Assembly (NCBI GenBank): GCA_017557185.1 | Contig: JAFZAP010000025.1 | Location: 1-32,523 of the forward strand | Direction of reading: 5' to 3' | From: Prevotella sp. | GTDB taxonomy: Bacteria; Bacteroidota; Bacteroidia; Bacteroidales; Bacteroidaceae | Length of the DNA: 32,523 nucleotides | Shown: piece after piece, positions 14,982 to 32,523 of the stretch | How positions within the stretch are numbered: position 1 is the stretch's first letter | Layout: each line of letters begins with the position of its first letter | Translations under genes and position numbers: made by a program | Notes under the pieces: generated by a model | What the model saw: only the letters and a program-made list of their open reading frames with translations | Database searches by the model: none | What the model was told of the DNA's origin: nothing

Positions 14982-16612
14982 GCTCGGCCTGAGGGATCAT
15001 TCATGTTCTTGAAGGCGGCATCCCACTCGAGGGCGATGGCGGTGGAGCAGGCAACGCTGGCCTCGCTGGGCACGCTGCGGGCGGCCGATTCTGAGGGGAA
15101 GTGCTCGGCGAAGATAGAGCGATAGTAGTATTCCTCCTTGTTCTTAGGCGGATTGATGGGGAACCGTTCGGCGGCATGCGCCATCTGTTCGTCGCTGACA
15201 GCCTCAGCGGTGATCTGCTTGAGGGTATCGATCCAAGAATAGCCCACTCCGTCGCTGAACTGCTCCTTCTGTCGCCACGCCACAGCCTCGGGCAACACAT
15301 CGGCGAAGGCCTCGCGGACTATCTTCTTCTCAATTGTCGAGCCTGGGCACATCTTCACCTCTGGATTTGTTCGCATAGCTACATCGAGGAACTCCTTGTC
15401 GAGGAAGGGAACACGACCCTCGACACCCCACGCCGACAGGCTCTTGTTGGCGCGGAGGCAGTCGTAGAGATAGAGCTTTCCGAGCTTGCGGACGGTCTCC
15501 TCGTGGAAGTCCTTTGCCGACGGGGCTTTGTGGAAGTAGAGATAGCCGCCGAAGATTTCGTCGGCTCCCTCGCCCGAGAGCACCATTTTGATTCCCATCG
15601 ACTTGATGACACGGGCCAACAGGTACATGGGCGTGGAAGCACGGACGGTGGTGACGTCGTAGGTCTCGATGAAGTAGATGACGTCGCGGATGGCATCGAG
15701 TCCTTCTTGAACGGTATAGTTGATTTCGTGGTGCACGGTGCCGATATGGTCGGCCACGAGCTTGGCTTTGGCGAGGTCGGGGGCTCCCTTCAGTCCTACG
15801 GCAAACGAGTGCAGACGAGGCCAGTAGGCTTTGGTCCGGGAGTCGTCCTCGATGCGCATCTCGCTGTATTTCTCGGCGATGGCTGAAACGACGGAGGAAT
15901 CCAGGCCGCCTGAGAGTAGCACGCCGTAGGGCACGTCGGACATCAGTTGGCGACGGACGGCGTCCTCGAGTGCATCATGGATAGCCTCAACGCTGGCAGG
16001 ATTGTCCTTCACGGCGTCAAACTGCATCCAGTCGCGGCGATAGTATCGCTTCATTCCCGGGTCGGCACTCCAGTAATAATGACCTGGCAGGAAGGGCTCA
16101 TAACGCTCGCACTGGCCTTCGAGGGCTTTCAGTTCAGATGCCACATAGACCGTGCCCTCGCTGTCGTAGCCAATGTAAAGGGGTATGACGCCGATGGGGT
16201 CGCGGGCAATCAAGAACTCGTTGCGCTCCTCGTCGTAGAGCACAAAGGCGAAGATGCCGCTCAGGTCTTCGAGAAAGTCGATGCCCTTCTCACGATACAA
16301 TGCCAGGATCACCTCGCAGTCGGAGCGCGTCTGGAACTCATATTGTCCGGCTAAGCGACGGCGAATCTCCAGATGGTTGTATATCTCGCCATTCACCGCC
16401 AACACCTGTTTCTGATCAGGAGAGAACAACGGCTGTCCGCCACTCTCGGGGTCGACGATGCTCAGTCGCTCGTGGGCGAGGATGGCGCTGCCGCCACAAT
16501 AGATTCCACTCCAGTCAGGACCGCGATGACGGATTTTCTGACTCATCTTCAAGGCTTTCTGACGGAGCTCCTGCGAAGGCTCCACGTTTAATATTGCTAC
16601 GATTCCACACAT
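14951..16612 (-). CDS. asnB: Asparagine synthase, glutamine-hydrolysing
   Basis: Protein of 553 residues, the normal length for AsnB. Cys2 (MCGIVAIL) is the class II glutaminase nucleophile; RHRGPDWSG and VNGEIYNH line the glutamine site. The synthetase domain has the pyrophosphate-binding SGGLDSS loop at 234-240 and VLSGEGADEIFGGY later. The enzyme makes asparagine from aspartate, glutamine and ATP in the cytoplasm. The C terminus DPSGRAVKGVHTNAY matches the family, so it is native although its last 28 bp are duplicated downstream. The gene is the last of the pyrG-carAB-glmS-asnB series and lies 64 bp after glmS in the same direction. Confidence 0.95.
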   Translation of the reverse strand: MCGIVAILNVEPSQELRQKALKMSQKIRHRGPDWSGIYCGGSAILAHERLSIVDPESGGQPLFSPDQKQVLAVNGEIYNHLEIRRRLAGQYEFQTRSDCEVILALYREKGIDFLEDLSGIFAFVLYDEERNEFLIARDPIGVIPLYIGYDSEGTVYVASELKALEGQCERYEPFLPGHYYWSADPGMKRYYRRDWMQFDAVKDNPASVEAIHDALEDAVRRQLMSDVPYGVLLSGGLDSSVVSAIAEKYSEMRIEDDSRTKAYWPRLHSFAVGLKGAPDLAKAKLVADHIGTVHHEINYTVQEGLDAIRDVIYFIETYDVTTVRASTPMYLLARVIKSMGIKMVLSGEGADEIFGGYLYFHKAPSAKDFHEETVRKLGKLYLYDCLRANKSLSAWGVEGRVPFLDKEFLDVAMRTNPEVKMCPGSTIEKKIVREAFADVLPEAVAWRQKEQFSDGVGYSWIDTLKQITAEAVSDEQMAHAAERFPINPPKNKEEYYYRSIFAEHFPSESAARSVPSEASVACSTAIALEWDAAFKNMNDPSGRAVKGVHTNAY

Positions 16613-16676: not shown

Positions 16677-18521
16677 TTATTCTACTGTCACACTCTTTGC
16701 GAGATTCCTGGGGCGGTCGACATCCTTGCCTTTGCAGACGGCAACGTGATAGGCCAGCAACTGCAGGGGAATGGAGGCGATGAGGGGCTGGAAACACTCC
16801 ATCGTGTCGGGGAGCTCGATGACGTGGTCGGCGAACTTGCTGATTTGCGCATCGCCCTCGGTGACCAGAGCTGTCACCCTGCCGCCTCGTGCCCGCACCT
16901 CCTGGATGTTGGAGATGACCTTCTCGTAGAGCCTGTCGCGGGTGGCGATGACGAATACTGGCATCTCGGAGTCGATCAACGCTATCGGACCGTGCTTCAT
17001 CTCTGCTGCCGGATAGCCCTCAGCATGGATATACGATATCTCCTTCAGCTTCAGGGCTCCTTCGAGCGCCAGAGGATAGTTGTAACCGCGCCCGAGGTAG
17101 AGGCAGTTCTTGGCGTAGGTGAAAGTGCGCGCCAGATGTTCTATCTGTTCGTTGTCCTTCAGTGCCTGCCGCATCTTCTCTGGGATCAGCGTCAGCTCCT
17201 TCACCATCCGCCCATACAACTCGTCGGCGATGGTGCCCCGTTCCTTAGCCAGGCAGAGTGCGAGCATCGAGAGCACCGTCACCTGTCCTGTGAATGCCTT
17301 GGTGGAGGCGACACCGATTTCCGGGCCTACGTGGATGTAGGTTCCCGTGTCGGTAGCACGAGGAATACTGCTACCGATGGCGTTGCAGATTCCGTAGATG
17401 AATGCCCCCTGCTCCTTCGCCAACTGGATGGCGGCAAGGGTGTCGGCGGTCTCACCACTCTGTGAGATAGCTATCACCACATCGTCGTTCGTCACCACAG
17501 GATTGCGATAGCGGAACTCCGAGGCGTACTCCACCTCGCAGGGGATGCGACACAGGCTCTCGAAGAGCTGTTTGCCGATGAGTCCGGCATGCCACGATGT
17601 GCCGCAGGCTACGATGACGATGCGCTTGGCCGAAAGCAGTTGTTCACGATAGTCGATGAGTGCGGAGAGCGTCACATGAGTACCCTCGACATTGATGCGT
17701 CCTCGCATGCAGTTGGTCAGGCACTCCGGCTGCTCGAAGATCTCCTTCAGCATGAAGTGCGGGTAGCCGCCCTTCTCAATCTGTCCGAGGTCGATGTCGA
17801 CCGTCTTGACTGCCAGCTCCTGCTCTTCGCCGAGAATGCTGATGACTCTCATCTCTTCGCCGAGCCGGATCTGGGCGATGTTCCCGTCCTCCAAATACAC
17901 TACCTTGTCGGTGTATTCAATGATAGGACTGGCATCGCTGCCCAGGAAGAACTCGCCGTCGCCGATGCCCACCACGATGGGACTCTGCTTGCGGGCGGCG
18001 ATAATCTGGCGAGGGTCGCGCTTATCGACGATGGCGATGGCGTAGGCGCCAATCACCTGATAGAGCGCCACCTGCACAGCCTCAAGCAGCGGCAGGTTCT
18101 TCCTGACCATGATATACTCCACCAGCTGCACCAACACCTCCGTGTCGGTGTCGCTCTCAAACCGGACACCCTTCGCCTGAAGCTTCGCCTTGATGTCGGC
18201 GTAGTTCTCGATGATGCCGTTGTGGATGATGGCGAGGTTACGGCTCTGCGAGTAGTGCGGGTGGGCATTCCTTGCCGACGGCTCGCCGTGGGTTGCCCAG
18301 CGCGTATGGGCGATGCCCACACAGCCCGTCACGTCCTTGTCGCTGCAATACTCTGTCAGGTTGTCCACCTTACCCTTGGCCTTATACACGTTCAGACTGC
18401 CACTGTCGCTAATCATTGCCACACCGGCTGAGTCGTAGCCACGATACTCCAGTCGCTGGAGTCCCTTTATCAAAATCGGATAGGCTTGCTTCGTGCCTAT
18501 ATATCCTACTATTCCACACAT
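16677..18521 (-). CDS. glmS: Glutamine-fructose-6-phosphate aminotransferase (isomerizing)
   Basis: Protein of 614 residues, typical GlmS length. Cys2 in MCGIVGYIG is the glutaminase nucleophile; the GATase II domain runs to about residue 220 (HTRWATHGEPS, NGIIENY). Two SIS sugar-isomerase domains follow, the first with VACGTSWHAG, the second with LGRGYNYPLALEGALKLKE and the ending LAKSVTVE that shapes the active site. It converts fructose-6-P and glutamine into glucosamine-6-P, the first step to UDP-GlcNAc for peptidoglycan and lipid A. No glmS ribozyme is seen upstream; it lies 41 bp behind carAB in the same apparent operon. Confidence 0.96.
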   Translation of the reverse strand: MCGIVGYIGTKQAYPILIKGLQRLEYRGYDSAGVAMISDSGSLNVYKAKGKVDNLTEYCSDKDVTGCVGIAHTRWATHGEPSARNAHPHYSQSRNLAIIHNGIIENYADIKAKLQAKGVRFESDTDTEVLVQLVEYIMVRKNLPLLEAVQVALYQVIGAYAIAIVDKRDPRQIIAARKQSPIVVGIGDGEFFLGSDASPIIEYTDKVVYLEDGNIAQIRLGEEMRVISILGEEQELAVKTVDIDLGQIEKGGYPHFMLKEIFEQPECLTNCMRGRINVEGTHVTLSALIDYREQLLSAKRIVIVACGTSWHAGLIGKQLFESLCRIPCEVEYASEFRYRNPVVTNDDVVIAISQSGETADTLAAIQLAKEQGAFIYGICNAIGSSIPRATDTGTYIHVGPEIGVASTKAFTGQVTVLSMLALCLAKERGTIADELYGRMVKELTLIPEKMRQALKDNEQIEHLARTFTYAKNCLYLGRGYNYPLALEGALKLKEISYIHAEGYPAAEMKHGPIALIDSEMPVFVIATRDRLYEKVISNIQEVRARGGRVTALVTEGDAQISKFADHVIELPDTMECFQPLIASIPLQLLAYHVAVCKGKDVDRPRNLAKSVTVE

Positions 18522-18562: not shown

Positions 18563-21500
18563 CTATAGATACGATAAATACAGGTAATTGGTTTGGGCGG
18601 GATATTCGGCTGCGAGGGTGTCGATCTGGTTGACAATGGGCACCAGTCCCAGCATCTTGCGCCACTTGCGGACGGTCAGCCCTGCCTGCTCCATCTTCAT
18701 ATACTGCTCCAGTCCTATCGCGCGGGCTATCTGGAAATCGGAGAAGCCATAGGTCTTAGCGGCATGCAGCAACGGGAATACTTCAGGCGACTGGAGATAC
18801 TCCTTGAGCTCACTCGGCTCCATCAGCTCAAAGACTTCCGACAGTTGGGAAAGTTCCTTGAGTTGCGAGTCGAGGTCGATGATGTGTTTCAGCTTCTGCA
18901 GGAACCAGCGGTCGATCATCGTCAGCTGGTGGATCTGCTCCACGCTATAGCCAATCTGCAGGGCCTTCGACACCACGAAGATACGCATGTCGGTAGGCTC
19001 GTGAAGAGCGGTGGCGATGTCCGGTATTTTTATGACGTGGTTTTCCACAAAACCGTGCATCCCCTGCCCTATCATGCGCAAGCCCTTCTGCAATGCCTCC
19101 TCGAACGTGCGACCGATGGCCATCACCTCGCCCACACTCTTCATCGACGAGCCGAGCTGCCGCTTCACTCCTTGGAACTTGGTCAGATCCCATCGGGGAA
19201 TCTTCACTACGACATAATCGAGGGCAGGCTCAAAGAAGGCGCTGGTGGTCTTCGTGACAGAATTCTTCAGGTCGAAGAGCCCGTAGCCCAGGCCGAGCTT
19301 GGCAGCGACGAAAGCCAGCGGATAGCCCGTCGCCTTCGATGCCAACGCCGACGATCGCGACAGACGGGCATTGACCTCGATGACGCGATAGTCCTCCGAC
19401 TGCGGGTCAAGGGCATACTGCACATTACACTCGCCCACGATGCCGATGTGGCGGATGATCTTGATGGCCAGCGCACGCAGTTTGTGATACTCGCTATTCG
19501 AGAGCGTCTGCGAGGGAGCCACCACGATCGACTCACCCGTATGGATGCCGAGGGGGTCGAGGTTCTCCATGTTGCAAACGGTGATGCAGTTGTCGTAGCG
19601 GTCGCGCACCACCTCGTATTCTATCTCCTTCCAACCTCGCAGCGACTTTTCAACTAATACCTGCGGCGAGAACGAAAACGCCTCTTCGGCCTGAACAAGC
19701 AATTCTTCCTCGTTGTCGCAGAAACCCGAGCCGAGGCCGCCAAGAGCATAGGCAGCTCGCAATATCACCGGGAATCCTAACTCCGCAGCTGCCCAACGCA
19801 CTTCCTCAACGGTGCTGCAAGCCTGACTCTTGATGGTCTTCACACCGATCTCGTCGAGACGCTTGACGAAGCGATCGCGATCTTCTGTGTCGATGATGGT
19901 CTGCACGGGGGTTCCCAACACCTTGACGCCATATTTCTCGAGCACACCCCTTTCGTAGAGTTCCACTCCGCAGTTCAGCGCTGTCTGTCCACCGAAACTC
20001 AAAAGGATTCCGTCGGGACGCTCTTTCTCTATCACCCGCTCCACAAACTCGGGTGTGACGGGTTGGAAATAGACGGTGTCGGCAACATCCTTCGAGGTCT
20101 GCACGGTTGCGATGTTGGGGTTGATGAGCACAGAGTAGATGCCCTCTTCCTTCAGCGCCTTCAGTGCCTGTGCGCCGCTGTAGTCGAACTCGCCGGCCTG
20201 ACCAATCTTCAAGGCTCCGCTGCCCAGCAATAGTACTTTCTTTAGAGTGGACGAGTAGACGAGTTGACAAGTGGACGAGTGTTTATCTGTGGACGAGTGG
20301 ACAAGTTGACAAGTTGACGAGTTATTTGCGCTATCATTCAACTTGTCATCTTGTTCACTTGTCCGCTCGGCCCGCAGGGACGCTTTCAGAGCGAAGCGGG
20401 GAAAGAACTTGTCAACTTGTTTACTTGTATACTTGTTTACTAATGAAACGAACTCATCAAATAAAAACTCCGTATCGACAGGCCCGGAACAAGCCTCCGG
20501 GTGGAACTGTGCCGACATCCACGGATTCGACTTGTGGCGGATGCCCTCGTTCGAGCCGTCGTTCATATTCACGAACAGCGGTTCCCAATCGTCAGGTAGT
20601 GTCGATGCATCTACTGCATAGCCGTGATTCTGCGAGGTGATGAAGCATTGTGTAGTGCCTACCCGCTGAACTGGCTGGTTGTGTGAACGATGACCGTATT
20701 TCAGTTTGTAGGTCTTCGCACCGGCGGCACGCGCCAGCAGCTGATTTCCCAGACAGATGCCCATGCAGGGCCTTACTTGCTTGCTTTCTAGGAATGTCCG
20801 GATATGCTCCACCGTCTTGCTGCATTGCTCTGGATCGCCGGGACCGTTTGCCAAGAAAAGACCGTCGAACTCCAATTGGTTGAAATCATAATCCCAAGGC
20901 ACACGCACCACTTCTATTCCGCGTCTGATGAGACAGCGGATGATGTTCGCCTTCACACCGCAATCGACAAGGACCACCTTCGGCACAGAGGAGACAGAGG
21001 ACACAGAGTCATCGTGTACTGCGGTTGGGTGATAGGTGATGATATCCTTGCAACTGACCTTCTCCACCCAGTTCACGGAGCCGTAGCTCTCGGTGTTCTC
21101 TGTCTTCTCTGTGCCCTCTGTCTTCTCTGTGCTCTCTGTGCCAATTATTACTCTCCCCATCATCACGCCACTTTCTCGCAACACCATCGTCAGCCTGCGA
21201 GTGTCGATACCTGTTATCGCAGGCACCTTCTCCCGCTTCAGCCATGCAGCCAGCGACTCTTTTGCGTTCCAATGAGAATAGGCCTCGCTATAGTCGGCCA
21301 CAACCAAAGCTTTCACATGGATGCGGCCACTCTCCAAAACAGGAAGTCTCCCCCTATCCCCCTCCAAGTGGAGGGTGAACTCAGATGAGCCAGTAGCCTC
21401 CCCCAGTTGGGGGAGGTTGGAGGGGACTCCATAGTTGCCAATCAGCGGATAGGTGGCAACCAGTATCTGGCCGGCATAACTGGGGTCTGTCAGACTCTCA

Positions 21501-21616
21501 GGATAGCCTGTCATAGCCGTGTTGAACACCACCTCGCCCACAGCATCGGCATCATAGCCAAACGAGCGGCCGATGAACTCTGTACCGTCTTCAAGAATGA
21601 GTTTAGCTTCTCTCAT
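18563..21616 (-). CDS. carA: CarA-CarB(N-terminal half) fusion, carbamoyl-phosphate synthase
   Basis: A single frame of 1017 residues. Residues 1-396 are CarA: the glutaminase triad is Cys288 (GICLGNQ), His372 and Glu374 (QFHPEA). Residues 397-457 are a repeat-derived linker. Residues 458-1017 are the first half of CarB: VLLLGSGALKIGQAGEFDYS, ATP-grasp core with ALGGLGSGF and ENLDPLGIHTGES, EVNARLSRSSALASKATGYP, then the oligomerization domain ending TNYLYLSYL. The family normally continues for another 500 residues (carbamate-kinase half and allosteric domain); here a stop codon falls right at the domain border. The synthetase half is strikingly like eukaryotic CPSase II. Three further repeat insertions lie inside CarA (residues about 66-93, 159-177, 203-212). 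The gene overlaps pyrG by 14 nt. Confidence 0.9.
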   Translation of the reverse strand: MREAKLILEDGTEFIGRSFGYDADAVGEVVFNTAMTGYPESLTDPSYAGQILVATYPLIGNYGVPSNLPQLGEATGSSEFTLHLEGDRGRLPVLESGRIHVKALVVADYSEAYSHWNAKESLAAWLKREKVPAITGIDTRRLTMVLRESGVMMGRVIIGTESTEKTEGTEKTENTESYGSVNWVEKVSCKDIITYHPTAVHDDSVSSVSSVPKVVLVDCGVKANIIRCLIRRGIEVVRVPWDYDFNQLEFDGLFLANGPGDPEQCSKTVEHIRTFLESKQVRPCMGICLGNQLLARAAGAKTYKLKYGHRSHNQPVQRVGTTQCFITSQNHGYAVDASTLPDDWEPLFVNMNDGSNEGIRHKSNPWMSAQFHPEACSGPVDTEFLFDEFVSLVNKYTSKQVDKFFPRFALKASLRAERTSEQDDKLNDSANNSSTCQLVHSSTDKHSSTCQLVYSSTLKKVLLLGSGALKIGQAGEFDYSGAQALKALKEEGIYSVLINPNIATVQTSKDVADTVYFQPVTPEFVERVIEKERPDGILLSFGGQTALNCGVELYERGVLEKYGVKVLGTPVQTIIDTEDRDRFVKRLDEIGVKTIKSQACSTVEEVRWAAAELGFPVILRAAYALGGLGSGFCDNEEELLVQAEEAFSFSPQVLVEKSLRGWKEIEYEVVRDRYDNCITVCNMENLDPLGIHTGESIVVAPSQTLSNSEYHKLRALAIKIIRHIGIVGECNVQYALDPQSEDYRVIEVNARLSRSSALASKATGYPLAFVAAKLGLGYGLFDLKNSVTKTTSAFFEPALDYVVVKIPRWDLTKFQGVKRQLGSSMKSVGEVMAIGRTFEEALQKGLRMIGQGMHGFVENHVIKIPDIATALHEPTDMRIFVVSKALQIGYSVEQIHQLTMIDRWFLQKLKHIIDLDSQLKELSQLSEVFELMEPSELKEYLQSPEVFPLLHAAKTYGFSDFQIARAIGLEQYMKMEQAGLTVRKWRKMLGLVPIVNQIDTLAAEYPAQTNYLYLSYL
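20246..20428. repeat. Composite repeat forming the CarA-CarB linker
   Basis: This 183-bp segment joins the two enzyme parts. It contains short ACTTGTCAACTTGT tandem units, module A (39 bp, 20309-20347) and module B (48 bp, 20361-20408). Module A recurs exactly at 22878-22916 in pyrG and reads DKLNDSANNSSTC in both proteins. Module B recurs exactly, but inverted, at 22832-22879. The translation is Ser/Thr/Asn-rich, without predicted fold. Confidence 0.85.
20981..21142. repeat. Inverted pair of ACAGAG simple repeats inside carA
   Basis: CACAGAGGAGACAGAGGACA at 20985-21006 and TCTGTGCCCTCTGTC units at 21091-21142 are the same short repeat in opposite orientation about 85 bp apart. They encode DSVSSVSSVP and TESTEKTEGTEKTENTES, both absent from ordinary CarA. 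Related GACAGAGAGACATAGAG words are intergenic at 12327 and 32237. Confidence 0.7.
21338..21425. repeat. C/G-rich repeat inside carA
   Basis: CCCCCTATCCCCCTCCAAGT and CCTCCCCCAGTTGGGGGAGG here belong to the C/G-rich palindromic family. They add about 20 residues (NLPQLGEATGSSEFTLHLEG region) between NYGVPS and ESGRIH, which lie close together in normal CarA. Confidence 0.65.
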
Positions 21617-23336
21617 AATCGGTTGTTTCGATGCATGCTTTCATGAACGACATAAACAACGGATGGGGATGCAGCACCGTCGAAGAATACTCCGGGTGGA
21701 ACTGCGTACCGATATACCATCGTTTGTCGGGTATCTCAACGATCTCCACAAGATTGGCGGCAGGGTTGATGCCTACGCACTTCATGCCATGATTCTCAAA
21801 TTCTTCCTGATAGGCATTGTTGAACTCATAGCGGTGGCGGTGGCGTTCCTTGACGAGCGTTTCCCCTCCATAAGCCTCATACACCTTACTGCCTTCCACT
21901 AACTGGCAGTCGTAGGCGCCCAGTCGCATCGTGCCGCCCATCTGCGTGATACTCTTCTGTTCCTCCATCATGTCGATGACATTGTGCGGGGTGAGGCTCA
22001 TCTCGGCACTGTTGGCATCGCTGTACCCTAATACGTTGCGGGCAAACTCAATCACCATCATCTGCATGCCAAGACAGATGCCAAACGTAGGAACATTGTG
22101 GGTGCGGCCATATTCGGCAGCAATAATCTTTCCTTCAATACCGCGCTGGCCGAAGCCCGGACAGATGAGGATGCCCGCCATATCGCTGAGTTTCTCGGCA
22201 ACGTTCTGACTGGTAATCTCCTCGCTATTCACAAAATGAATCTTCGCCTTCACATCGTTGTAGATGCCGGCGAGATTCAGACTTTCGCGGATGCTCTTGT
22301 AAGCGTCCTGCAGGTCGTACTTACCCACCAGTCCGACATGTACCTCGCGGGTAGCGTGCCGCTGCTTCTCAAGGAAGTCGTGCCAAGCCTTCATGGCTGG
22401 TGTCTCGCCCACAGGAATGCCAATCTTACGCATAATGGCGGCATCCAGCCCTTGTCGCTGCATGCTCACAGGCACCTCATAGATGCTGGGCATGTCCTCG
22501 CTTTGCACCACGCATTCCAGATCGACATTACAGAACGACGCCACCTTCAGACGTATCGAGTCATCGAGGTGGCGCTCCGTGCGTAAGACGAGTATGTCGG
22601 GCTGAATACCCATGCTCTGCAACTCCTTCACTGAGTGTTGAGTGGGCTTGGTCTTCAGTTCGTCGGCAGCTTTCAGATAGGGCACGTAGGTCAGGTGTAC
22701 ACAGACGGCATCGCGTCCCAGTTGCCAGCGCAGCTGACGAATGGCCTCCATGAAGGGCGCACTCTCTATGTCGCCAATAGTGCCACCGACTTCGGTGATA
22801 ACGAAGTCATACTGAGTTGACAAGTTCACAAGTTCTTTCCCCGCTTCGCTCTGAAAGCGTCCCTGCGGGCCGAGCGGACAAGTTGACGAGTTATTTGCGC
22901 TATCATTCAACTTGTCCACTTGTTCACTTGTCAACTTGTCAACTCTAAAATGAAGCATCCTCCGTTTAATCTCGTCCGTAATGTGTGGCACTACCTGAAT
23001 TGTTTTGCCCAAGTAGTCGCCGTGCCGTTCGCGGTCGATCACGGTCTTATAGATACGACCTGTTGTAATCGAGTTGTTGCGGGTGGTATGTATGCCGGTG
23101 AATCGTTCGTAATGCCCCAGATCCAGATCTGTCTCCATACCGTCTTCGGTGACATAACACTCGCCATGTTCGTAGGGATTCAACGTCCCTGGGTCGATGT
23201 TGATGTAAGGATCGAATTTCTGAATCGTCACCTTGAAGCCGCGTGCCTGCAGCAGCTTGCCAATGCTGGCTGAGATGATACCCTTCCCCAAAGAGGAAAC
23301 CACGCCGCCTGTGACGAAAATGTACTTTGTGTTCAT
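21603..23336 (-). CDS. pyrG: CTP synthase with repeat-derived insertion
   Basis: Protein of 577 residues, about 40 longer than usual. The N-terminal amidoligase domain opens MNTKYIFVTGGVVSSLGKG with the nucleotide-binding loop. The glutaminase domain has Cys421 (GICLGMQ), His547 and Glu549 (QFHPEY). It makes CTP from UTP, ATP and glutamine. Residues about 130-174 (VDKLTSEQVDKLNDSANNSS and onward to ELVNLST) interrupt the ordinary join between EIKRRML and YDFVITEVGGT and are encoded by dispersed repeats. As the frame is intact and all catalytic residues are present, the enzyme is probably active. It is the first gene of the operon, read from a promoter at about 23390, and its stop overlaps the carA start (ATGAG within TATGAGAG). 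Confidence 0.95.
   Translation of the reverse strand: MNTKYIFVTGGVVSSLGKGIISASIGKLLQARGFKVTIQKFDPYINIDPGTLNPYEHGECYVTEDGMETDLDLGHYERFTGIHTTRNNSITTGRIYKTVIDRERHGDYLGKTIQVVPHITDEIKRRMLHFRVDKLTSEQVDKLNDSANNSSTCPLGPQGRFQSEAGKELVNLSTQYDFVITEVGGTIGDIESAPFMEAIRQLRWQLGRDAVCVHLTYVPYLKAADELKTKPTQHSVKELQSMGIQPDILVLRTERHLDDSIRLKVASFCNVDLECVVQSEDMPSIYEVPVSMQRQGLDAAIMRKIGIPVGETPAMKAWHDFLEKQRHATREVHVGLVGKYDLQDAYKSIRESLNLAGIYNDVKAKIHFVNSEEITSQNVAEKLSDMAGILICPGFGQRGIEGKIIAAEYGRTHNVPTFGICLGMQMMVIEFARNVLGYSDANSAEMSLTPHNVIDMMEEQKSITQMGGTMRLGAYDCQLVEGSKVYEAYGGETLVKERHRHRYEFNNAYQEEFENHGMKCVGINPAANLVEIVEIPDKRWYIGTQFHPEYSSTVLHPHPLFMSFMKACIETTDYERS
22815..22949. repeat. Composite repeat inserted in pyrG
   Basis: Module B (22832-22879, 48 bp) and module A (22878-22916, 39 bp) are exact copies of those in the CarA-CarB linker, with B in the opposite orientation relative to A. 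ACTTGTCAACTTGT tandem units flank both sides. The insertion is a multiple of three and keeps pyrG open. Confidence 0.85.
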
Positions 23337-23371: not shown

Positions 23372-23387
23372 GCGCCTTTCAAGGCGC
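23372..23387. promoter_or_regulatory. Palindrome at the pyrG start site
   Basis: GCGCCTT-TC-AAGGCGC is a perfect 7-bp inverted repeat that touches the -7 box of the pyrG promoter and covers the expected start site (about 23381). It could be an operator or a hairpin at the mRNA 5' end; the sequence does not decide. Confidence 0.45.
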
Positions 23388-23466
23388 AAAGGTAGTACTT
23401 TTTCATAGGATAAGAAAAAGGACACTGCTGTTTTGATTGTTAAAATTCTGACTATCTGACATTTTG
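23387..23466 (-). promoter_or_regulatory. pyrG operon promoter with two-box upstream element
   Basis: Read on the minus strand: CAAAATGTCA (23466-23457), 11 bp, TTTTAACAAT (23445-23436), 41 bp, then -7 box TACCTTTG (23394-23387). There is no TTG at the -33 position, which suggests dependence on an activator. The same spacing is found at gltB and at 31968-32047. Confidence 0.7.
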
Positions 23467-23533
23467 TAAAGTAGAAGATGGTATTACGGGTTGTCATGCT
23501 GACACAATGAACGATTATTATGGATTTTTATAG

Positions 23534-23613
23534 CAAAATGTCAATAATGCGTTTTTTCAACAACAAAAAAACTGTCAACAATTTTGAGGCATCTGCAAAA
23601 TAATTTAATTTTG
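23534..23613 (+). promoter_or_regulatory. gltB operon promoter with two-box upstream element
   Basis: CAAAATGTCA (23534-23543), 11 bp, TTTCAACAAC (23555-23564), 41 bp, -7 box TAATTTTG (23606-23613); a -33 TTG lies at 23584-23586. The first box is the mirror image of the pyrG box at 23457-23466, the pair spanning 87 bp. A start near 23620 makes the ATG at 23657 more likely than the GTG at 23633. Confidence 0.7.
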
Positions 23614-23656
23614 CAGGCAGAAAACAGATAAGGTGAAAGATAACAGTAAGGATAAT

Positions 23657-26600
23657 ATGACAGAGGGCAAACTGCAGACAGCACTGAGAGAACAGAAGAC
23701 ACCGCGCCTTCAGCAGGGACTCTACCAACCCGCCTATGAGCACGACGCTTGTGGTGTGGGTATGGTGGTGAATATTCACGGCGGGAAAAGCCACGAACTG
23801 GTGGATAACGCACTACGCGTGTTGGAGAACATGGAGCATCGAGGCGCTGAGACACGCGACAAGACAGGCGATGGCGCTGGCATCATGTTGCAGATTCCCC
23901 ATGAATTCATCCTGTTGCAAGGCATCCCCGTGCCGGAGAAAGGCCGATATGGTACTGGACTGGTATTTCTGCCTCGCGATGAAAAAGCACAGGAGGCAAT
24001 TCTAAGCGTGATGATTGAGGAGATTGAGCGCGAAGGGTTGCAACTGATGCATGTGCGCACGGTGCCGACTTGCCCTGAGGTATTAGGCGCTGCGGCAAGA
24101 AAGGTGGAGCCGGAGATTAAGCAGATATTCGTGACGGGAGCCACTGAGCAGCAAGCAGAAACCATCGACCGCACATTATATAAAATAAGGAAAAGGATTG
24201 AGAACAGGGTGACGAAGATGGCTGACGACGGCAGGGAAACCGTCGACCGCGTGTCTTTCAACGACTTTTATATCTGTTCACTGTCGAGCAAGAACATCAT
24301 TTACAAGGGAATGTTGACAAGCGGACAGCTCAGGCGGTATTTCCCAGATTTGTCGAGTCCCTATCTGACAAGCGGCCTTGCGCTGGTGCACTCTCGCTTC
24401 TCCACCAACACATTTCCGACGTGGAGCCTGGCCCAGCCGTTCCGCTTGCTGGCTCACAACGGCGAGATCAATACCATTCGTGGCAATCGCGGATGGATGA
24501 AAGCTCGCGAAAGCGTCCTGAGCAGTGAGACTCTGGGTGATATCAAGGACCTATGCCCCATCGTGCAGGAGGGCATGAGCGATTCCGCCAGTTTGGACAA
24601 CGTGTTTGAGTTTCTCATGATGAGCGGACTTAGTCTGCCACAGGCCATCGCAATTTTAGTGCCAGAGAGTTTTAATGACAAGAACCCCATCTCGGAAGAC
24701 CTGAAGGCGTTCTACGAATATCACTCCATATTGATGGAACCGTGGGACGGCCCTGCAGCACTACTGTTCAGCGACGGCCGCTATGCAGGCGGAATGCTTG
24801 ACCGAAACGGATTGCGTCCCAGTCGCTACACAATAACAAAACAAGGAATGATGGTAGTAGCTAGCGAGGTGGGCGTGATGGACTTCGAGCCTGGCGACGT
24901 GGTGAGCAAGGGTCGCCTGCAGCCAGGTAAGATTCTGCTTATCGACACGCAGGAAGGCAAAATCTACTATGATGGCGAAATCAAGGAGCAATTAGCAAAG
25001 GCACATCCCTATCGCGACTGGCTCAGCGAGAACCGCGTGCAACTGGAGAAACTGAAGAGTGGCCGAAAGGTGGAGAACGGTTTGGGCGACCTGGAACAGA
25101 AACTCGTGGCGTTCGGCTTCGGACAGGAAGACATTGATAAGACGATTACCCCGATGGCAACAACAGGACGGGAGCCTGTGGCAGCGATGGGTAACGACAC
25201 TCCGCTGGCGGTCGTCAGCGATCGTCCGCAGGTCTTCTTTAATTATTTCCGTCAGCAGTTCGCACAGGTGACGAACCCCGCCATCGACCCGATTCGCGAA
25301 GAACTGGTGATGTCGTTGACGGAGTATATCGGTGCCGTTGGAACAAACATTCTGACACCCGATGCAAGCAATTGTAAGATGGTTCGTCTGCCGCAACCTG
25401 TATTGACCAACACACAACTCGACATATTATGTAACATCCGCTACAAGGGCTTCAAGACGAAGAAGTTGGCGATGCTTTTTGAGATTGCCCAAGGCGAGGG
25501 CGGCCTGCGCCAGGCACTCCATGAACTCTGCAAAGAGGCAGAGGCTAGTGTGGACGAGGGTGTGAACTATATCATCCTCTCTGACCGCGACATTGATGAA
25601 AAACATGCGGCAATTCCTTCGCTGCTGGCTGTTTCGGCTGTGCACCACTATCTGATTAGCGTGGGTAAGCGTGTTCAGACAGCCCTGATTGTAGAGAGCG
25701 GTGAGATTCGCGAAACGATGCACGCAGCCTTGTTGCTGGGCTACGGTGCAAGTGCGCTGTGTCCGTATGTGACATTCGCTATCCTCGACGATCTCGTGAA
25801 GAAGCACAAGATTCAAGAGGAGTATGCTACCGCTGAGAAGAACTACATCAAGGCGGTCGACAAAGGATTGAAAAAGATCATGTCGAAGATGGGTATTTCG
25901 ACCATCCGCAGTTATCGGGGCGCGAAGATCTTCGAGAGCATCGGGCTGAGCGAGGACTTGCTGAGGAGGTACTTCGGCACAGACACAAGTACTATCGGTG
26001 GCATCGGACTGAAGGAAATAGCGAGGGACGCGATAAGGCTGCATGAAAAGAGCCTCACCCCCAGCCCAAAGGGCGAGGGGAAAGGTTTCCTTCCTAACAA
26101 TGGTCAGTTCTCGTGGCGTAAGGATGGTATCAAGCATGCCTGGAATCCTGAGACGATTGCGAAGCTGCAACTGGCGACGCGACAGGGCTACTACGAGAAA
26201 TTCAAGGATTGGGCAAAACTCGTTGATGAGAAAGAATCGCCTATCTTTATCCGCGACTTTTTCGGTTGGAAGAAGGCTACGAAGCCCACACCTATCGACG
26301 AGGTAGAACCTGTGGAAAGTATCGTCAGGCATTTTGTGACGGGTGCTATGTCGTTTGGCGCGCTGAGCAAAGAGGCCCACGAGGCATTAGCGTTAGCAAT
26401 GAACAAACTCGGCACGCGCAGCAACACTGGCGAGGGCGGTGAGGACAACGTCCGCTATCATACGGAGGTTGATGGTGTTTCTCTGTCAAGCAAGACCAAG
26501 CAGATAGCCAGCGGACGCTTTGGCGTGACGACAGAATATCTGGTGAATGCCGAGGAAATACAAATCAAGGTCGCCCAGGGTGCAAAACCGGGTGAAGGCG

Positions 26601-28240
26601 GACAGTTGCCTGGTTTCAAGGTGAATGGCATCATCGCCAAGACTCGCAACGCTATGCCCGGCATCTCGCTGATTTCACCACCCCCACATCACGACATCTA
26701 CAGCATTGAGGATTTGGCTCAGCTTATCTTCGACTTGAAGAACGTGAACCCCACAGCTGCGGTCAGCGTGAAACTCGTGGCCGAGAGTGGTGTGGGAACG
26801 ATTGCCGCGGGTGTGGCGAAGGCCAAGGCCGACCTCATCGTGATTAGCGGAGCCGAAGGAGGAACGGGTGCATCACCCGTATCAAGTATGCGATTTGCAG
26901 GCATCAGCCCTGAGATTGGACTCGCCGAGACGCAGCAGACACTTGTACGCAACGGACTGAGGAACCAGGTGCGCCTGCAGACCGACGGTCAGCTGAAGAC
27001 CGCGAAGGACGTTATCATTATGGCAATGCTTGGCGCCGACGAGTTCTCGTTCGGCACACTGCCGTTGATTGTTCTCGGATGCGTGATGATGAGGAAATGC
27101 AACACAAACACCTGTCCGATGGGTGTGGCAACGCAGGATCCAGAGCTTCGGAAGCACTTCGAGGGACGCGCCGAATACGTGGTGAATTTCTTCACGTTCC
27201 TCGCTGAACAGGTGCGGGAATATCTGAGCGAAATCGGTGTGCATAGCCTGAAGGAGATTATCGGACACACGGAGCTTATCGAGGTAGATACCGTTAACGC
27301 CACCGATAAGCAGAAGACTATTGACTTCGGTCGCTTGCTGCATCAGCCAGAGACGGACCGTGCCCTCTATTGGGATCGCGGCGAATTTACGAAGGTGACC
27401 AGCGTTAAGGACGAGGAAATCATAAAAGCTGCCGCGAACGCTATCGACAGACAGGAAGAAATCACCCTCGACTACTCTATTCGCAACACCGACCGCGCCG
27501 TGGGTACGATGCTCTCAGGAGTCATCGCAAAGAAATACGGTGAAGCAGGTTTGCCCGAAGGTACTATCAACATCAAATTCAAGGGATCGGCTGGCCAAAG
27601 CTTCGGCGCGTTTGCGGTGAAAGGCGTGAACCTGAAACTCGAGGGCGAGTGCAACGATTATTTCGGCAAGGGTCTCTCGGGCGGTCGCATCAGCATTCTT
27701 CCTCCTGCACGTAGTAGCAAGGACTTCCGTGCAGAAGATAACATCATCGCAGGAAACACAGGACTTTATGGCGCCACTTCCGGAGAAATGTTCATCAACG
27801 GAAAGGTGGGTGAGCGCTTTGGTGTGCGCAACTCGGGTGCTATCGCCGTCATCGAGGGCGCTGGCGACCACTGTTGTGAGTACATGACAGGCGGTCGCGT
27901 GGTAGTGCTTGGTAAGACTGGGCGTAACTTCGCAGCTGGTATGTCGGGCGGTGTGGCCTATGTCTACGACCCCGATCATTCCTTCGACTACTTCTGCAAT
28001 ATGGATATGGTGGAACTCTCGCTCATCGAGGACAGCACGAGCCGCAAAGAACTACTCGAACTCATTCGCCAGCACTATCTGCATACTGGTTCGGCGCTGG
28101 CAGGACGGATGCTCGACAACTTCTCGAAGTATGTTGATGACTTCATTCAGGTATTGCCTATTGAATATAAGCGCGTGTTGGAGGAGGAGAAGATGGCACG
28201 GCTGCATGAGAAGATTGCCGACATCCAGCGAGAATATTAA
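23657..28240 (+). CDS. gltB: Glutamate synthase, large (alpha) subunit
   Basis: Protein of 1527 residues from the ATG at 23657, which follows AAGGA; an in-frame GTG at 23633 would leave hardly any leader. The glutaminase nucleophile is the Cys of EHDACGVG (residue 32), exposed in this family by removal of a short propeptide. The FMN-binding synthase domain carries the 3Fe-4S cysteines C1142, C1148 and C1153 (CVMMRKCNTNTC). The C-terminal beta-helix shows the G-rich repeats (GGRVVVLGKTGRNFAAGMSGG). With GltD it transfers glutamine amide nitrogen to 2-oxoglutarate. A repeat-derived peptide ([13 protein letters not shown], about residue 800) sits between the central and FMN domains. It leads the gltB-gltD-dapF-dapL series, divergent from pyrG. 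Confidence 0.96.
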   Translation: MTEGKLQTALREQKTPRLQQGLYQPAYEHDACGVGMVVNIHGGKSHELVDNALRVLENMEHRGAETRDKTGDGAGIMLQIPHEFILLQGIPVPEKGRYGTGLVFLPRDEKAQEAILSVMIEEIEREGLQLMHVRTVPTCPEVLGAAARKVEPEIKQIFVTGATEQQAETIDRTLYKIRKRIENRVTKMADDGRETVDRVSFNDFYICSLSSKNIIYKGMLTSGQLRRYFPDLSSPYLTSGLALVHSRFSTNTFPTWSLAQPFRLLAHNGEINTIRGNRGWMKARESVLSSETLGDIKDLCPIVQEGMSDSASLDNVFEFLMMSGLSLPQAIAILVPESFNDKNPISEDLKAFYEYHSILMEPWDGPAALLFSDGRYAGGMLDRNGLRPSRYTITKQGMMVVASEVGVMDFEPGDVVSKGRLQPGKILLIDTQEGKIYYDGEIKEQLAKAHPYRDWLSENRVQLEKLKSGRKVENGLGDLEQKLVAFGFGQEDIDKTITPMATTGREPVAAMGNDTPLAVVSDRPQVFFNYFRQQFAQVTNPAIDPIREELVMSLTEYIGAVGTNILTPDASNCKMVRLPQPVLTNTQLDILCNIRYKGFKTKKLAMLFEIAQGEGGLRQALHELCKEAEASVDEGVNYIILSDRDIDEKHAAIPSLLAVSAVHHYLISVGKRVQTALIVESGEIRETMHAALLLGYGASALCPYVTFAILDDLVKKHKIQEEYATAEKNYIKAVDKGLKKIMSKMGISTIRSYRGAKIFESIGLSEDLLRRYFGTDTSTIGGIGLKEIARDAIRLHEKSLTPSPKGEGKGFLPNNGQFSWRKDGIKHAWNPETIAKLQLATRQGYYEKFKDWAKLVDEKESPIFIRDFFGWKKATKPTPIDEVEPVESIVRHFVTGAMSFGALSKEAHEALALAMNKLGTRSNTGEGGEDNVRYHTEVDGVSLSSKTKQIASGRFGVTTEYLVNAEEIQIKVAQGAKPGEGGQLPGFKVNGIIAKTRNAMPGISLISPPPHHDIYSIEDLAQLIFDLKNVNPTAAVSVKLVAESGVGTIAAGVAKAKADLIVISGAEGGTGASPVSSMRFAGISPEIGLAETQQTLVRNGLRNQVRLQTDGQLKTAKDVIIMAMLGADEFSFGTLPLIVLGCVMMRKCNTNTCPMGVATQDPELRKHFEGRAEYVVNFFTFLAEQVREYLSEIGVHSLKEIIGHTELIEVDTVNATDKQKTIDFGRLLHQPETDRALYWDRGEFTKVTSVKDEEIIKAAANAIDRQEEITLDYSIRNTDRAVGTMLSGVIAKKYGEAGLPEGTINIKFKGSAGQSFGAFAVKGVNLKLEGECNDYFGKGLSGGRISILPPARSSKDFRAEDNIIAGNTGLYGATSGEMFINGKVGERFGVRNSGAIAVIEGAGDHCCEYMTGGRVVVLGKTGRNFAAGMSGGVAYVYDPDHSFDYFCNMDMVELSLIEDSTSRKELLELIRQHYLHTGSALAGRMLDNFSKYVDDFIQVLPIEYKRVLEEEKMARLHEKIADIQREY
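26045..26088. repeat. C/G-rich repeat inside gltB
   Basis: GCCTCACCCCCAGCCC followed by AAAGGGCGAGGGGAAAGG matches the intergenic family at 12482, 13338 (reverse) and 31849. It adds about 13 residues, in frame, before LPNNGQFSWRKDG. Confidence 0.7.
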
Positions 28241-28262
28241 TTATCAATTATCAATTGTTATC
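28241..28262. repeat. TTATCAATTATCAATTG spacer between gltB and gltD
   Basis: The 22-bp spacer is a tandem AATTATC repeat. The same unit fills the dapF-dapL spacer, and a derivative encodes [12 protein letters not shown] within gltD (28911-28944). Confidence 0.65.
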
Positions 28263-29642
28263 ATGGGAAATCCGAAAGCATTTTTAGAGATACACCGCCA
28301 GGAAGCTGGATACCGTCCGGTCAATGACAGAATTCACGATTTCGGCGAGGTGGAGCAGACGCTCAACACGCATCTTCGCCGTGAACAGGCCAGCCGCTGC
28401 ATGGATTGCGGCGTGCCCTTCTGTCACTGGGCTTGTCCGTTGGGCAACAAGGCACCCGAATGGAACGACGCATTGTATCGCGGCTACTGGGAACAGGCTT
28501 TCCGCCTGCTCACCAGCACCAACCCTTTCCCGGAATTCACGGGCCGCATCTGTCCTGCCCTCTGCGAGAAGGCATGTGTACTGAACCGCTTCAACCACGA
28601 GCCGACGACCAATCGCGAGGACGAATGCGCCATCATAGAGGCTGCCTTCCGCGAAGGCTATATCAAACCCCGCATACCTGTAAGGAATGGAAAGCATGTG
28701 GCGGTCATCGGTGCCGGCCCTGCAGGACTCGTTGCTGCCAACGACCTCAACCAGATGGGCTATAGCGTCACCGTATTCGAGAAGAACGAAGCTGCCGGCG
28801 GACTCCTTCGCTATGGCATTCCCAATTTCAAGCTGAACAAGGCCGTCATCGACCGTCGCCTGCAACTGCTGGAACAAGAGGGTATTAAGTTTGTCTACGG
28901 CTGTGCTGTAGAAATTGATAATGGAGAATTGAAAATTGATAATGGCTCTGATAGCGCAGCCAATCATGATCCATACGACGCCATCGTCATCGCCACCGGC
29001 ACTCCCGCCGCTCGTGACCTCAAGGCTCCCGGACGCGACCTGAAGGGCGTTCACTTTGCACTCGAACTGCTCTCCCAGCAGAACCGCGTCCTTGCCGGCA
29101 TGGAATTTACGAAGGAAGAGCGTATCACCGCCAAAGGCAAGGATGTGCTCGTGATCGGTGGTGGCGACACAGGCAGCGACTGCATCGGCACCGCCCATCG
29201 TCAGGGATGTAAGAGTGTGACGCAAATAGAAATCATGCCGCGACCCGTTGAAGGGCCCGACGACCCGCAGAATCCTTGGCCCAATTGGCCCCGCACCCTC
29301 AAGACCACCTCGTCGCATGAAGAGGGTTGCACCCGCCGCTGGAATATCAACACCCTTGAGTTTCTGGGCGAGAACGGAAAACTGACGGGAGTTCGTGTAC
29401 AGGAAATAGACTGGGAGCCCAATCCCGAAGGTGGTCGGCCGCTGATGGTGGAGAAAGGTAAGCCGGAAATCATCAAGGCCGAACTCGTTTTGCTGGCGAT
29501 GGGATTCCTGAAGCCCGAACATCCGCAGTATCCTGAGAATGTCTTCGTCTGCGGTGATGCCGCCAATGGTGCCTCACTTGTTGTCCGCGCTATGGCCAGC
29601 GGCCGCCAGACTGCCATAAAAGTAAATGATTATCTGAAATGA
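28263..29642 (+). CDS. gltD: Glutamate synthase, small (beta) subunit
   Basis: Protein of 459 residues from the ATG at 28263; the longer frame to 27909 overlaps gltB and is not supported. The N-terminal cysteine clusters ([13 protein letters not shown] and CPALCEKAC) bind 4Fe-4S centres. The first dinucleotide fold is [17 protein letters not shown] (FAD) and the second [13 protein letters not shown] (NAD(P)H); [19 protein letters not shown] closes the FAD site. It passes electrons from NAD(P)H to GltB. A short internal tandem ([12 protein letters not shown]) comes from the AATTGATAATG repeat family. Its stop shares the ATGA with the dapF start, showing translational coupling. Confidence 0.95.
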
Positions 29643-30571
29643 GCAAGATTCAATTCACCAAGATGCACGGCTGTGGCAACGACTACATCTACGTCAATGC
29701 CATGCTTTACCACATCCCCGACCCGAAGGCTGCTGCTATCGCGTGGAGCGACCGCCACAAGGGCATCGGCTCCGATGGATTGGTACTCATCGACCGCTCG
29801 CCCATTCCCGAGGCCGACTACTCTATGCGCATCTTCAATGCCGACGGCAGCGAAGCCATGATGTGCGGCAATGCATCAAGGTGTATAGGGAAATATCTCT
29901 ATGAACGGGGACTCTCCGACAAGACCCAGATTAAACTACTCACGATGTCGGGCGTCAAAACATTGTCGTTGCATGTAAGCGATGGTATTGTTGAAAGCGT
30001 CACGGTCGATATGTTGGAACCTGTATTGGAGGACGAGCGCCTGTTTAACCCACAAATCGCGAAGAGTCTATCTACTCCCCTCGCCCTTCATGTTCCCCTC
30101 GCCCCTCATGTTCCCCTCGCCCTTCGGAGAGGGGGTAGGGGTGAGGCCGGGGTTAGGGGTGAGGCCGGGGCTGGGGGTGAGGCTGCTGTTTTTGTCTCGA
30201 TGGGCAATCCACACTACGTCATCTTCACCGACGATGTCGATCAGGTGGGCGAGACAGGACGCATCCTCGAACATCATCCTGCCTTCCCGCAGCGCTGCAA
30301 TATCGAGTTCGCTCAGGTCATCCCTCCCTCGGAGGGACAGGAGGCGGGTATCCGCACGCGCGTCTGGGAGCGTGGCTCAGGTATCACGCAGGCCTGTGGC
30401 ACAGGAGCCTGTGCTACGGCTGTAGCCGCTGCCGTCACAGGCCGTGCGGGGCGCAGTTCGCAAATCGTGATGGATGGCGGCACCCTCCACATCGAGTGGC
30501 GCGAGTCAGACAATCACGTCTATATGACCGGCCCTGCCGCCTTCGTCTTCGACGGAGAGATAGAACTCTAA
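29639..30571 (+). CDS. dapF: Diaminopimelate epimerase with repeat insertion
   Basis: Protein of 310 residues, about 40 more than usual. The two catalytic cysteines are Cys76 (MMCGNASR) and Cys253 (QACGTGACA), which swap protons at the alpha carbon to turn LL- into meso-diaminopimelate for lysine and peptidoglycan. [29 protein letters not shown] and RVWERGSG are all in place. Residues about 143-182 ([20 protein letters not shown], then GEAG repeats) are encoded by dispersed C/G-rich repeats and lie in the hinge between the two lobes. A smaller SEGQEAG insertion is at 232-238. It overlaps gltD by 4 nt and precedes dapL, the step before it in the DapL pathway. Confidence 0.94.
30067..30185. repeat. 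Tandem C/G-rich repeats inside dapF
   Basis: Three tandem CCCCTCGCCCTTCATGTT-like units are followed by inverted GGGGTAGGGGTGAGGCCGGG units, three copies in tandem. Both halves belong to the CCTCACCCC family seen between genes. The total length keeps the frame, and copy number could vary between strains. Confidence 0.75.
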
Positions 30572-30608: not shown

Positions 30609-31844
30609 ATGGCTCTAGTAAACATCCACTTCCTGAATCTGCAGAACAACTACCTGTTTGCCGACATCGCCAAGAAGGTGAACGCCTTCAAGGTGATGCA
30701 CCCCAAGGCCGACGTCATCTCCCTCGGCATCGGCGACGTCACCCAGCCACTCGCCCCCGCCGTTGTAGAGGCCATGCACCGCGCTGCCCACGAGATGGGA
30801 ACCTTCAAGGGATTCCGCGGCTACGGCCCCGAGCAGGGCTACGACTTCCTGCGCGAAGCCATCCTGAAGAACGACTTCCTGCCGCGCGGTGTCCACCTCG
30901 ATATCGATGAGATCTTCATCAACGACGGCGCGAAGTCCGACACGGGCAACTTCCAGGAGCTGCTCCACTGGGACAACTACATTGGCGTCACCGACCCTAT
31001 CTACCCCGTCTATATCGACTCGAACGTGATGATCGGACGCTGCGGAACCTATCGTGACGGCCGTTGGACGAACGTGCGCTACCTGCCTACCACAGCTGAA
31101 AACGGATTTGTGCCTGAGCTGCCCAAAGGCCGTCCCGTCGACGTCATCTACCTCTGCTATCCCAACAACCCCACGGGCACTGTCATCACCAAGCCCGAAC
31201 TGCGCAAGTGGGTGAACTACGCGCTGAAGAACGATGCCCTCATCCTCTACGATGCCGCCTATCAGGCCTACATCCGCGACAAGGAGATCCCGCACAGCAT
31301 CTATGAGATACGAGGTGCCCGCAAGTGTGCCGTCGAATTCCACTCGTTCTCGAAAACCGCCGGCTTCACGGGTGTGCGCTGTGGATATACCGTGGTGCCG
31401 AAGGAGGTGAGCGTGAGCACCTTCGAGGGCGAACGCATCCCGTTGAACCAGCTGTGGCTGCGCCGACAGACAACGAAGTTCAATGGCACCAGCTACATCT
31501 CGCAGCGTGCCGCCGAGGCCATCTACACCCCCGAAGGCAAGCAGCAGATACAACAGACCATCGACTACTACATGCAGAATGCCAACCGCCTGCTCACCCG
31601 CCTTCGCGCCCTCGGCTACGAGGTCTATGGTGGTGAGAATGCACCATATATCTGGATGCGCACGCCCGACGGCATGGGTTCCTGGCAATTCTTCGAGGCT
31701 CTCCTCTATGGCGCCAGCGTCGTCTGCACCCCGGGAGTCGGCTTCGGCCCCAGCGGCGAGGGATACGTCCGCTTTACCGCCTTCGGCAGCCATGAGAGCA
31801 CGGAGGAAGCCCTTCAGCGCATCGAGGCCTGGAGTAAGGGATAA
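30609..31844 (+). CDS. dapL: LL-diaminopimelate aminotransferase
   Basis: Protein of 411 residues, the usual DapL length. It is a fold-type I aminotransferase: Lys249 in SFSKTAGFTGVRCGY would hold pyridoxal phosphate, CYPNNPTGT and FRGYGPEQGY are typical for the family, and the start MALVNIHFLNLQNNYLFADI fits DapL. It makes LL-diaminopimelate from tetrahydrodipicolinate and glutamate in one step, replacing the succinylase or acetylase route. Glutamate, its amino donor, is the product of gltBD upstream, and dapF acts on its product. Last gene of the plus-strand operon; I see no clear terminator after it. Confidence 0.95.
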   Translation: MALVNIHFLNLQNNYLFADIAKKVNAFKVMHPKADVISLGIGDVTQPLAPAVVEAMHRAAHEMGTFKGFRGYGPEQGYDFLREAILKNDFLPRGVHLDIDEIFINDGAKSDTGNFQELLHWDNYIGVTDPIYPVYIDSNVMIGRCGTYRDGRWTNVRYLPTTAENGFVPELPKGRPVDVIYLCYPNNPTGTVITKPELRKWVNYALKNDALILYDAAYQAYIRDKEIPHSIYEIRGARKCAVEFHSFSKTAGFTGVRCGYTVVPKEVSVSTFEGERIPLNQLWLRRQTTKFNGTSYISQRAAEAIYTPEGKQQIQQTIDYYMQNANRLLTRLRALGYEVYGGENAPYIWMRTPDGMGSWQFFEALLYGASVVCTPGVGFGPSGEGYVRFTAFGSHESTEEALQRIEAWSKG

Positions 31845-32047: not shown

Positions 32048-32057
32048 CACCAAGAAA

Positions 32058-32155: not shown

Positions 32156-32203
32156 TGGATTTTCACGGATTATATATTTGAACATCTATAACCACGAAAT
32201 ATG

Positions 32204-32498: not shown

Positions 32499-32523
32499 TG
32501 CATTCTATGTTAAATTCCTAATA

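Follow-up and report, generated by a model that had tools for sequence, protein, structure and literature searches.

In E. coli, Lrp activates gltBDF; in the Bacilli, GlnR and TnrA act through the operator TGTNAN7TNACA; and the -24/-12 consensus of sigma-54 promoters is TGGCAC-N5-TTGC, while the -7 box TAnnTTTG is of the Bacteroidota type. Prevotella are prominent bacteria of the rumen and gut, and their control of ammonia assimilation at the promoter is apparently undescribed: in the accessible portions of the open-licence literature, no published account of such control in Bacteroidota was found, nor of a motif like the one reported below. For archaeal Lrp proteins, the available text of a review describes binding sites as imperfect palindromes with AT-rich centers, 13 bp in the FL11 co-crystal, that are clustered on one face of the helix two or three turns apart (PMC2995911), and the glutamine-responsive Sa-Lrp, in the available text on it, wraps DNA and attaches to the promoters of ammonia-assimilation genes (PMC3584215). 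In P. ruminicola 23, the accessible part of an expression study reports that amtB, glnK, glnN, gltBD, asnB, pyrG and dapF change jointly with ammonium, amtB by up to 69-fold; this text is inconsistent on direction (induced in limiting ammonium versus higher in non-limiting ammonium), and the main text makes no mention of a promoter, motif, operon, transcription factor or Lrp (PMC5552732).

The locus described here is the gap between the divergent genes pyrG and gltB on a Prevotella sp. contig of 32,523 nucleotides, the whole of which was analyzed and is called the window below. Its promoters point to a nitrogen regulon whose two-headed operator is phased with the DNA helix; no earlier description of such a system was found.

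Three promoters of the window share two boxes at fixed spacing

The minus-strand operon comprises pyrG, a fused carA/half-carB, glmS and asnB, and the plus-strand operon comprises gltB, gltD, dapF and dapL (Table 1), the true start of gltD probably lying inside its ORF. A similar carA/carB fusion of 977 residues, judged by length and N-terminus, is present in genome G105, and in G160 carA is separate and carB is of half length. Direct reading of the sequence established that both divergent promoters carry CAAAATGTCA-N11-TTTYAACAAY-N41-TAnnTTTGC, confirming the order and spacing that a first-pass annotation had described in both directions; the gaps of 11 and 41 bp are identical on the pyrG and gltB sides, and the sequences between the boxes differ between the two promoters. 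The distances of 63 bp noted at the time (23457 to 23394 and 23543 to 23606) are likewise correct, but 23457 and 23543 mark the end of each box that is nearer to its promoter, where the outer end had been stated. The pyrG promoter indeed has no TTG at -33, and the gltB promoter has a TTTG at 23583-23586, 19 bp upstream of its -7 box.

A search of the window with the 31-bp two-box pattern, allowing up to three mismatches, returned three matches, all of them exact, and 100 dinucleotide shuffles of the window returned none. These three are also the only exact matches in the whole genome (3.35 Mb, 89% complete; reversed control, 0). At up to three mismatches the genome held one further match, which has three mismatches and no TAnnTTT 33-49 bp downstream, and the reversed control then gave two. 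Comparison of the window with Rfam gave no match.

The third exact copy, at 31968-31998 (31968-32048 with its -7 box), had been overlooked when only two copies were reported; it follows dapL. Because dapL, the site and glnK stand in this same order in genomes G007 and G166, the third copy is probably a glnK promoter. A search of the genome, which is 89% complete, returned no glnK, and the 475 bases from the third promoter to the contig end contain no ORF of 100 residues, the longest having 86. Part of this stretch, 32207-32495, forms a near-palindrome about 290 bases long, built of nested inverted repeats that are 86-89% complementary, and RNA folding of 32044-32523 was far better than that of shuffles (z = -9). 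Possibly the near-palindrome is a small mobile element whose presence parts the promoter from glnK and caused the break in the assembly.

Table 1. Promoter elements and genes of the window, with positions, strand and remarks
Feature	Position	Strand	Remark
-7 box TACCTTTGC, pyrG promoter	23386..23394	-	72 bp from first base of box, as in the pattern behind the 41 strict sites
Second box TTTTAACAAT, pyrG	23436..23445	-	Sequence and genome pattern search
First box CAAAATGTCA, pyrG	23457..23466	-	
Main palindrome, core CAAAATG 23460-23466	23457..23469	-	pyrG position -72, gltB position -146
Shared central site CACAATG	23503..23509	.	gltB -103, pyrG -115; core CAnnnTG, not CAWWWTG
Main palindrome, core CAAAATG 23534-23540	23531..23543	+	gltB position -72, pyrG position -146
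First box CAAAATGTCA, gltB	23534..23543	+	
Second box TTTCAACAAC, gltB	23555..23564	+	Sequence and genome pattern search
-7 box TAATTTTGC, gltB promoter	23606..23614	+	212 bp from pyrG -7 box
Palindrome TGACATTTTGAAA	31891..31903	+	Position -146 of third promoter
CATTATG	31925..31931	+	Position -115 of third promoter
Third copy: palindrome TTACAAAATGTCA 31965-31977, second box TTTTAACAAT 31989-31998	31965..31998	+	
-7 box TACCTTTGC, third promoter	32040..32048	+	Again after 41 bp
asnB	14951..16612	-	
glmS	16677..18521	-	
carA fused to N-terminal half of carB	18563..21616	-	One 1017-residue protein
pyrG, CTP synthase	21603..23336	-	
gltB, glutamate synthase large subunit	23633..28240	+	
ORF containing gltD	27909..29642	+	Named from Pfam domains and place after gltB
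dapF	29639..30571	+	
dapL	30609..31844	+	

The boxes are part of a helically phased palindrome array

An alignment of 39 sites placed the two boxes within a longer pattern. The earlier description of boxes repeating about every 21 bp did not hold: a palindromic core, CAWWWTG, recurs more often, most commonly in steps of 31-32 bp and also with neighbors at 10-11 bp, and the two boxes are one piece of a longer array of these palindromes that is phased with the helix. Core positions were counted in 115 promoters, with the T of the -7 box as reference, with one row (L114) and one reverse-strand pseudo-hit at L091 left out, and the preferred positions were -146/-145, -136/-135, -115/-114, -104/-103, -72, -41, -10 and, weakly, +22. 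The stretch from -76 to -2 served to select the promoters and is biased by that choice; the stretch from -200 to -76 did not. In this upstream stretch, 115 of 147 cores fell on 8 of 125 positions, compared to 9.4 expected if uniform, with the positions chosen from the same data. The best period of the upstream cores was 10.4 bp, and their phase concentration at 10.5 bp was 0.84, compared to at most 0.27 in 1000 rotations, a statistic in which cores of divergent pairs count from both sides and the promoters, being from one genus, are not independent. Taken alone, gltB, glnK, pyrG, amtB and glnN each gave a concentration of 0.83-0.90 (glnN with 7 cores).

The cores are flanked by T at -3 in 87 of 115 cases and by A at +9 in 86 of 115, which extends the unit to a 13-bp palindrome, TnnCAWWWTGnnA; within the core, A and T interchange, and both CATTTTG and CAAAATG are found. 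Six such palindromes occur in the window, where 0.74 would be expected by chance, and four of the six lie in the promoters described here. A stray one at 4142-4154, at the start of a hybrid two-component sensor gene (4149), is probably due to chance. In the window, the main palindrome of each divergent promoter sits exactly at the other promoter's -146 position, and both positions of the shared central site are among those favored genus-wide. None of the window's three promoters has a core at -41 or -10.

The target genes differ in which units they keep. A core of the form CAnnnTG is present at -72 in 27/36 gltB, 23/28 glnK, 15/21 pyrG, 18/19 amtB and 6/6 glnN promoters, and at -41 in 0/36 gltB, 12/28 glnK, 3/21 pyrG, 7/19 amtB and 5/6 glnN promoters. 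The second box is kept in 15/21 pyrG, 14/19 amtB, 4/6 glnN and 16/28 glnK promoters; for gltB, where the same box had been described, the version is weak, and TTTAACAA stands at its place in 0/36 promoters. Alignment columns 22-28, in the second box, are identical in 36-39 of the 39 aligned sites, which were picked by a pattern containing these letters. The TTTTAACAAT box is unlike the palindrome in sequence and could be the site of a different factor.

At promoters, the strict pattern was found in one genus, upstream of nitrogen-assimilation genes

A strict pattern, defined as the two boxes plus the -7 box with at most three mismatches, was found at 41 sites, spread over 25 of the 150 genomes that represent the genus, the source genome included, and the reversed control gave none. 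Nitrogen-assimilation genes (glnK, pyrG, amtB, glnN, gltB and carA) follow 40 of the 41 sites, and the lone exception is the window's third copy, with no readable gene downstream. The downstream genes were recognized by their N-termini, with families checked on examples against Pfam and NCBIfam: the first 34 were 11 glnK, 9 pyrG, 5 amtB, 4 glnN, 3 gltB, 1 carA and 1 with none readable, and the remaining seven sites precede amtB (3), glnN (2), glnK (1) and pyrG (1), six of these by ORF tables. The scan for target enrichment that had been suggested yielded sites upstream of pyrG, gltB, amtB, glnK, glnN and carA in congeners, and the spacing that was to be compared at gltB and pyrG of related species is kept there and at the four other genes. 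Since the spacing is kept in congeners and the joint ammonium response of P. ruminicola 23 is reported in the available text (PMC5552732), the shared nitrogen or glutamine regulon proposed earlier is supported.

Across the order, strict matches occurred in 2 of 393 genomes, the source genome and G238; 390 of the 393 are from other genera, and the one match among these (1/390, G238) lies inside a coding gene. Across the family, 2 of 301 genomes matched, both of the same genus and one of them (G610) at pyrG, and genomes of other genera gave 0/279. Among named contigs there were at least six matches (five Prevotella sp., one Prevotellaceae), five of which precede amtB, the sixth reaching the end of its locus. 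The strict form of the site is thus a genus-level feature, not seen at promoters elsewhere among the Bacteroidales genomes scanned, and a more diverged form may exist beyond the genus.

A recognizable gltB start was present in 62 of 70 gltB loci, and 59 of these 62 have a -7 box in range. Of the 59 gltB promoters, 23 scored above 0 by a 79-column matrix, and 36 gltB promoters pass a shorter matrix; the gltB array is accordingly more diverged than the glnK array. At -7-like sites in a set of nitrogen clusters (L099-L113), the shorter matrix scored above 0 in 30 of 127 cases. In many of the nitrogen clusters read, the first ammonium-transporter gene is followed by a protein of about 235-250 residues with no Pfam match (L099, 2925-3653, and like ORFs), and we presume, as a guess from position, that it may equal PRU_1977 of P. 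ruminicola 23. According to the accessible part of the expression study, PRU_1977 changed 58-fold with ammonium (PMC5552732).

Most divergent promoter pairs lie at whole-turn distances

Mirror symmetry, first seen in the window alone, proved to be conserved in itself. Twenty-nine divergent pairs were found and 28 were kept; the one left out was spurious, both of its members falling on the same promoter (the L091 pseudo-hit). The distance between the -7 boxes is 201-203 bp in 5 and 211-212 bp in 15 of the 28 pairs. In these 20 pairs, drawn from 20 genomes, the main boxes are separated by 63 or 73-74 bp (6 or 7 turns); in the other 8 pairs, the -7 boxes are 304-549 bp apart. One partner is gltB in all 20 spaced pairs, and the other is amtB (8), glnK (6), pyrG (4), a putative porin (1) or unclear (1). 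In 9 of the 20 spaced pairs, from related genomes, the weaker promoter scores below 10 by the matrix. An exchange of partner genes at a kept distance is hard to explain other than by one shared protein-DNA complex, and this is an uncommonly clean example of a distance between two promoters that evolution has kept in units of the helical turn.

Candidate regulators and alternative explanations

The palindromes are tentatively assigned to a protein of the Lrp/AsnC type, the most likely family on present analysis, because the form of the site and its steps fit those in the available text on Lrp proteins (PMC2995911) and because a glutamine-responsive example exists, again by the available text (PMC3584215). 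This genome has three Lrp/AsnC genes. No array lies upstream of any of them, with matrix scores of -50 or less and one lone core at -61; autoregulation by the same sites is common, not universal, among Lrp proteins. The best candidate is the gene linked to metY (L096), whose best solved-structure match is 2gqq, a leucine-responsive regulatory protein that we take to be the E. coli protein. In a first sample of chosen genomes, this type was found in 14 of 16 array-bearing genomes (15 strict-site genomes and G032), compared to 0 of 14 array-free genomes, and 2 of the 14 array-bearing carriers (G012 and G099) have only relatives of 52-54% identity; relatives of 50-63% identity occur in 21 of 150 genomes. 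At an identity of at least 74%, it is present in 22 of 25 strict-site genomes and in 34 of 125 others, relatedness not being allowed for, and co-occurrence had a Fisher p of 2.4e-8 with kinship ignored and with 35/125, a broken copy in G122 being included. A weaker array is present in many of the genomes that lack a strict site. The strict-site genomes G028 (99% complete), G153 (76%) and G167 (89%) lack this gene, which therefore counts as no more than a candidate regulator. In G122 (99% complete), all that is present of this type are fragments near 686070 and 691669 on contig C1, one of them interrupted by a stop codon, and the gltB promoter of that genome (L019) keeps part of the array.

A regulator of another or undescribed family may bind the palindromes, with the likeness to Lrp being a convergence of geometry, although we regard this as somewhat improbable. 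ORF tables of 15 site neighborhoods revealed no obvious transcription-factor gene, Pfam searches of eight flanking proteins gave as DNA-binding candidates only an HU-type (L101) and a LuxR-type protein (L162), and G028 lacks the metY-linked Lrp gene; nevertheless, AT-centered palindromes on one face with steps of two to three turns are what is described for Lrp-like proteins. An AraC-type gene adjoining asnB (14021-14902) was set aside: AraC proteins usually use a direct spacing of 21 bp, which the repeats lack, and the genes on the far side of this one are carbohydrate genes.

OmpR/PhoB-type regulons have direct repeats at 11-bp intervals, and an OmpR/PhoB-type response regulator reading 7-bp units CAAAnTG at that interval is an unlikely, if not unreasonable, candidate. 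Cores of the form CAnnnTG occur together at -115 and -104 in 6/28 glnK, 4/21 pyrG, 3/19 amtB and 2/6 glnN promoters, and at -146 and -136 in 3 glnK, 1 pyrG, 4 amtB and 0 glnN promoters; aligned sites often read CAAAGTGTTAG CAAAATGAAAG at such neighboring positions; and neighbors 10-11 bp apart, found in some glnK, pyrG and amtB promoters, would overlap as 13-bp palindromes and agree better with an OmpR/PhoB-type protein. However, steps of 31-32 bp are the commonest, the core is symmetric and occurs in both its CATTTTG and CAAAATG forms, and the -115/-104 pair is found in 1/36 gltB promoters.

Without any specific regulator, the repeats could be nothing more than A-tracts in helical phase, curving the DNA ahead of strong promoters, and the 10.4-bp period and A/T-rich cores do suit curved DNA; the kept flanking T and A, the interchange of A and T inside the core, and the nitrogen genes behind nearly every strict site (40/41) make this very improbable. 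Likeness by chance or by recent duplication without function, which the restriction of exact copies to three in the genome might suggest, can be dismissed given conservation in diverged congeners at unrelated genes, empty reversed controls and differing sequences between the boxes.

Discussion

Altogether, these data suggest that the pyrG/gltB gap is probably a two-headed control region of a Prevotella nitrogen-assimilation regulon, in which an oligomerizing regulator binds the palindromes and handles both promoters as one unit. The sites, their spacing and phasing, their target genes and their conservation are observed directly; from them we infer protein binding, wrapping, a signal, a direction of regulation and a regulator family. 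A dimeric, oligomerizing regulator would occupy the 13-bp TnnCAWWWTGnnA palindromes, spaced by about three helical turns along a single face of the DNA. It would cover roughly 200 bp and wrap the promoter region, tying the promoters of pyrG-carAB-glmS-asnB and gltBD-dapF-dapL into one nucleoprotein unit. Another copy of the array would drive the gene after dapL, probably glnK, and nitrogen status, sensed as glutamine, 2-oxoglutarate or PII, would set the occupancy of the regulator. This arrangement makes a physical prediction, namely that inserts of half a turn between the promoters break control and inserts of a full turn do not, and the array both names target genes and provides bait DNA for the regulator.

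With respect to known systems, the array shares the kind of target gene with NtrC/sigma-54 control (glnK, amtB and glutamine synthetase); it differs in that the promoters here have the -7 box TAnnTTTG, and sigma-54-like sites at up to two mismatches number 15 in the window, compared to 16.5 by chance, none overlapping these promoters. The kind of target gene is also shared with GlnR/TnrA of the Bacilli, whose operator is matched nowhere in the window (0 sites, against 0.36 expected by chance). The ammonium-responsive set of P. ruminicola 23, as given in the accessible text, includes genes found among the targets and operons of the array, the response being known from that species (PMC5552732). 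With Lrp/AsnC regulators, the array shares imperfect AT-centered palindromes of about 13-15 bp, as seen in the flank profile of 115 units picked for CAWWWTG, and several sites on one helix face two to three turns apart, a criterion taken from the available review text, in which amino-acid signals are also theirs (PMC2995911). In the portions available of the literature on Lrp proteins, TnnCAWWWTGnnA was not met as an Lrp consensus; no link between the array and an Lrp gene emerged, and the fixed two-headed spacing and the second box TTTTAACAAT are its own. It could quite possibly represent a form of nitrogen control particular to Prevotella and separate from NtrC, GlnR and NtcA, in which about 210 bp are wrapped, divergent promoters act as one unit, and the partner of gltB may be swapped while the distance stays at 6 or 7 whole turns.
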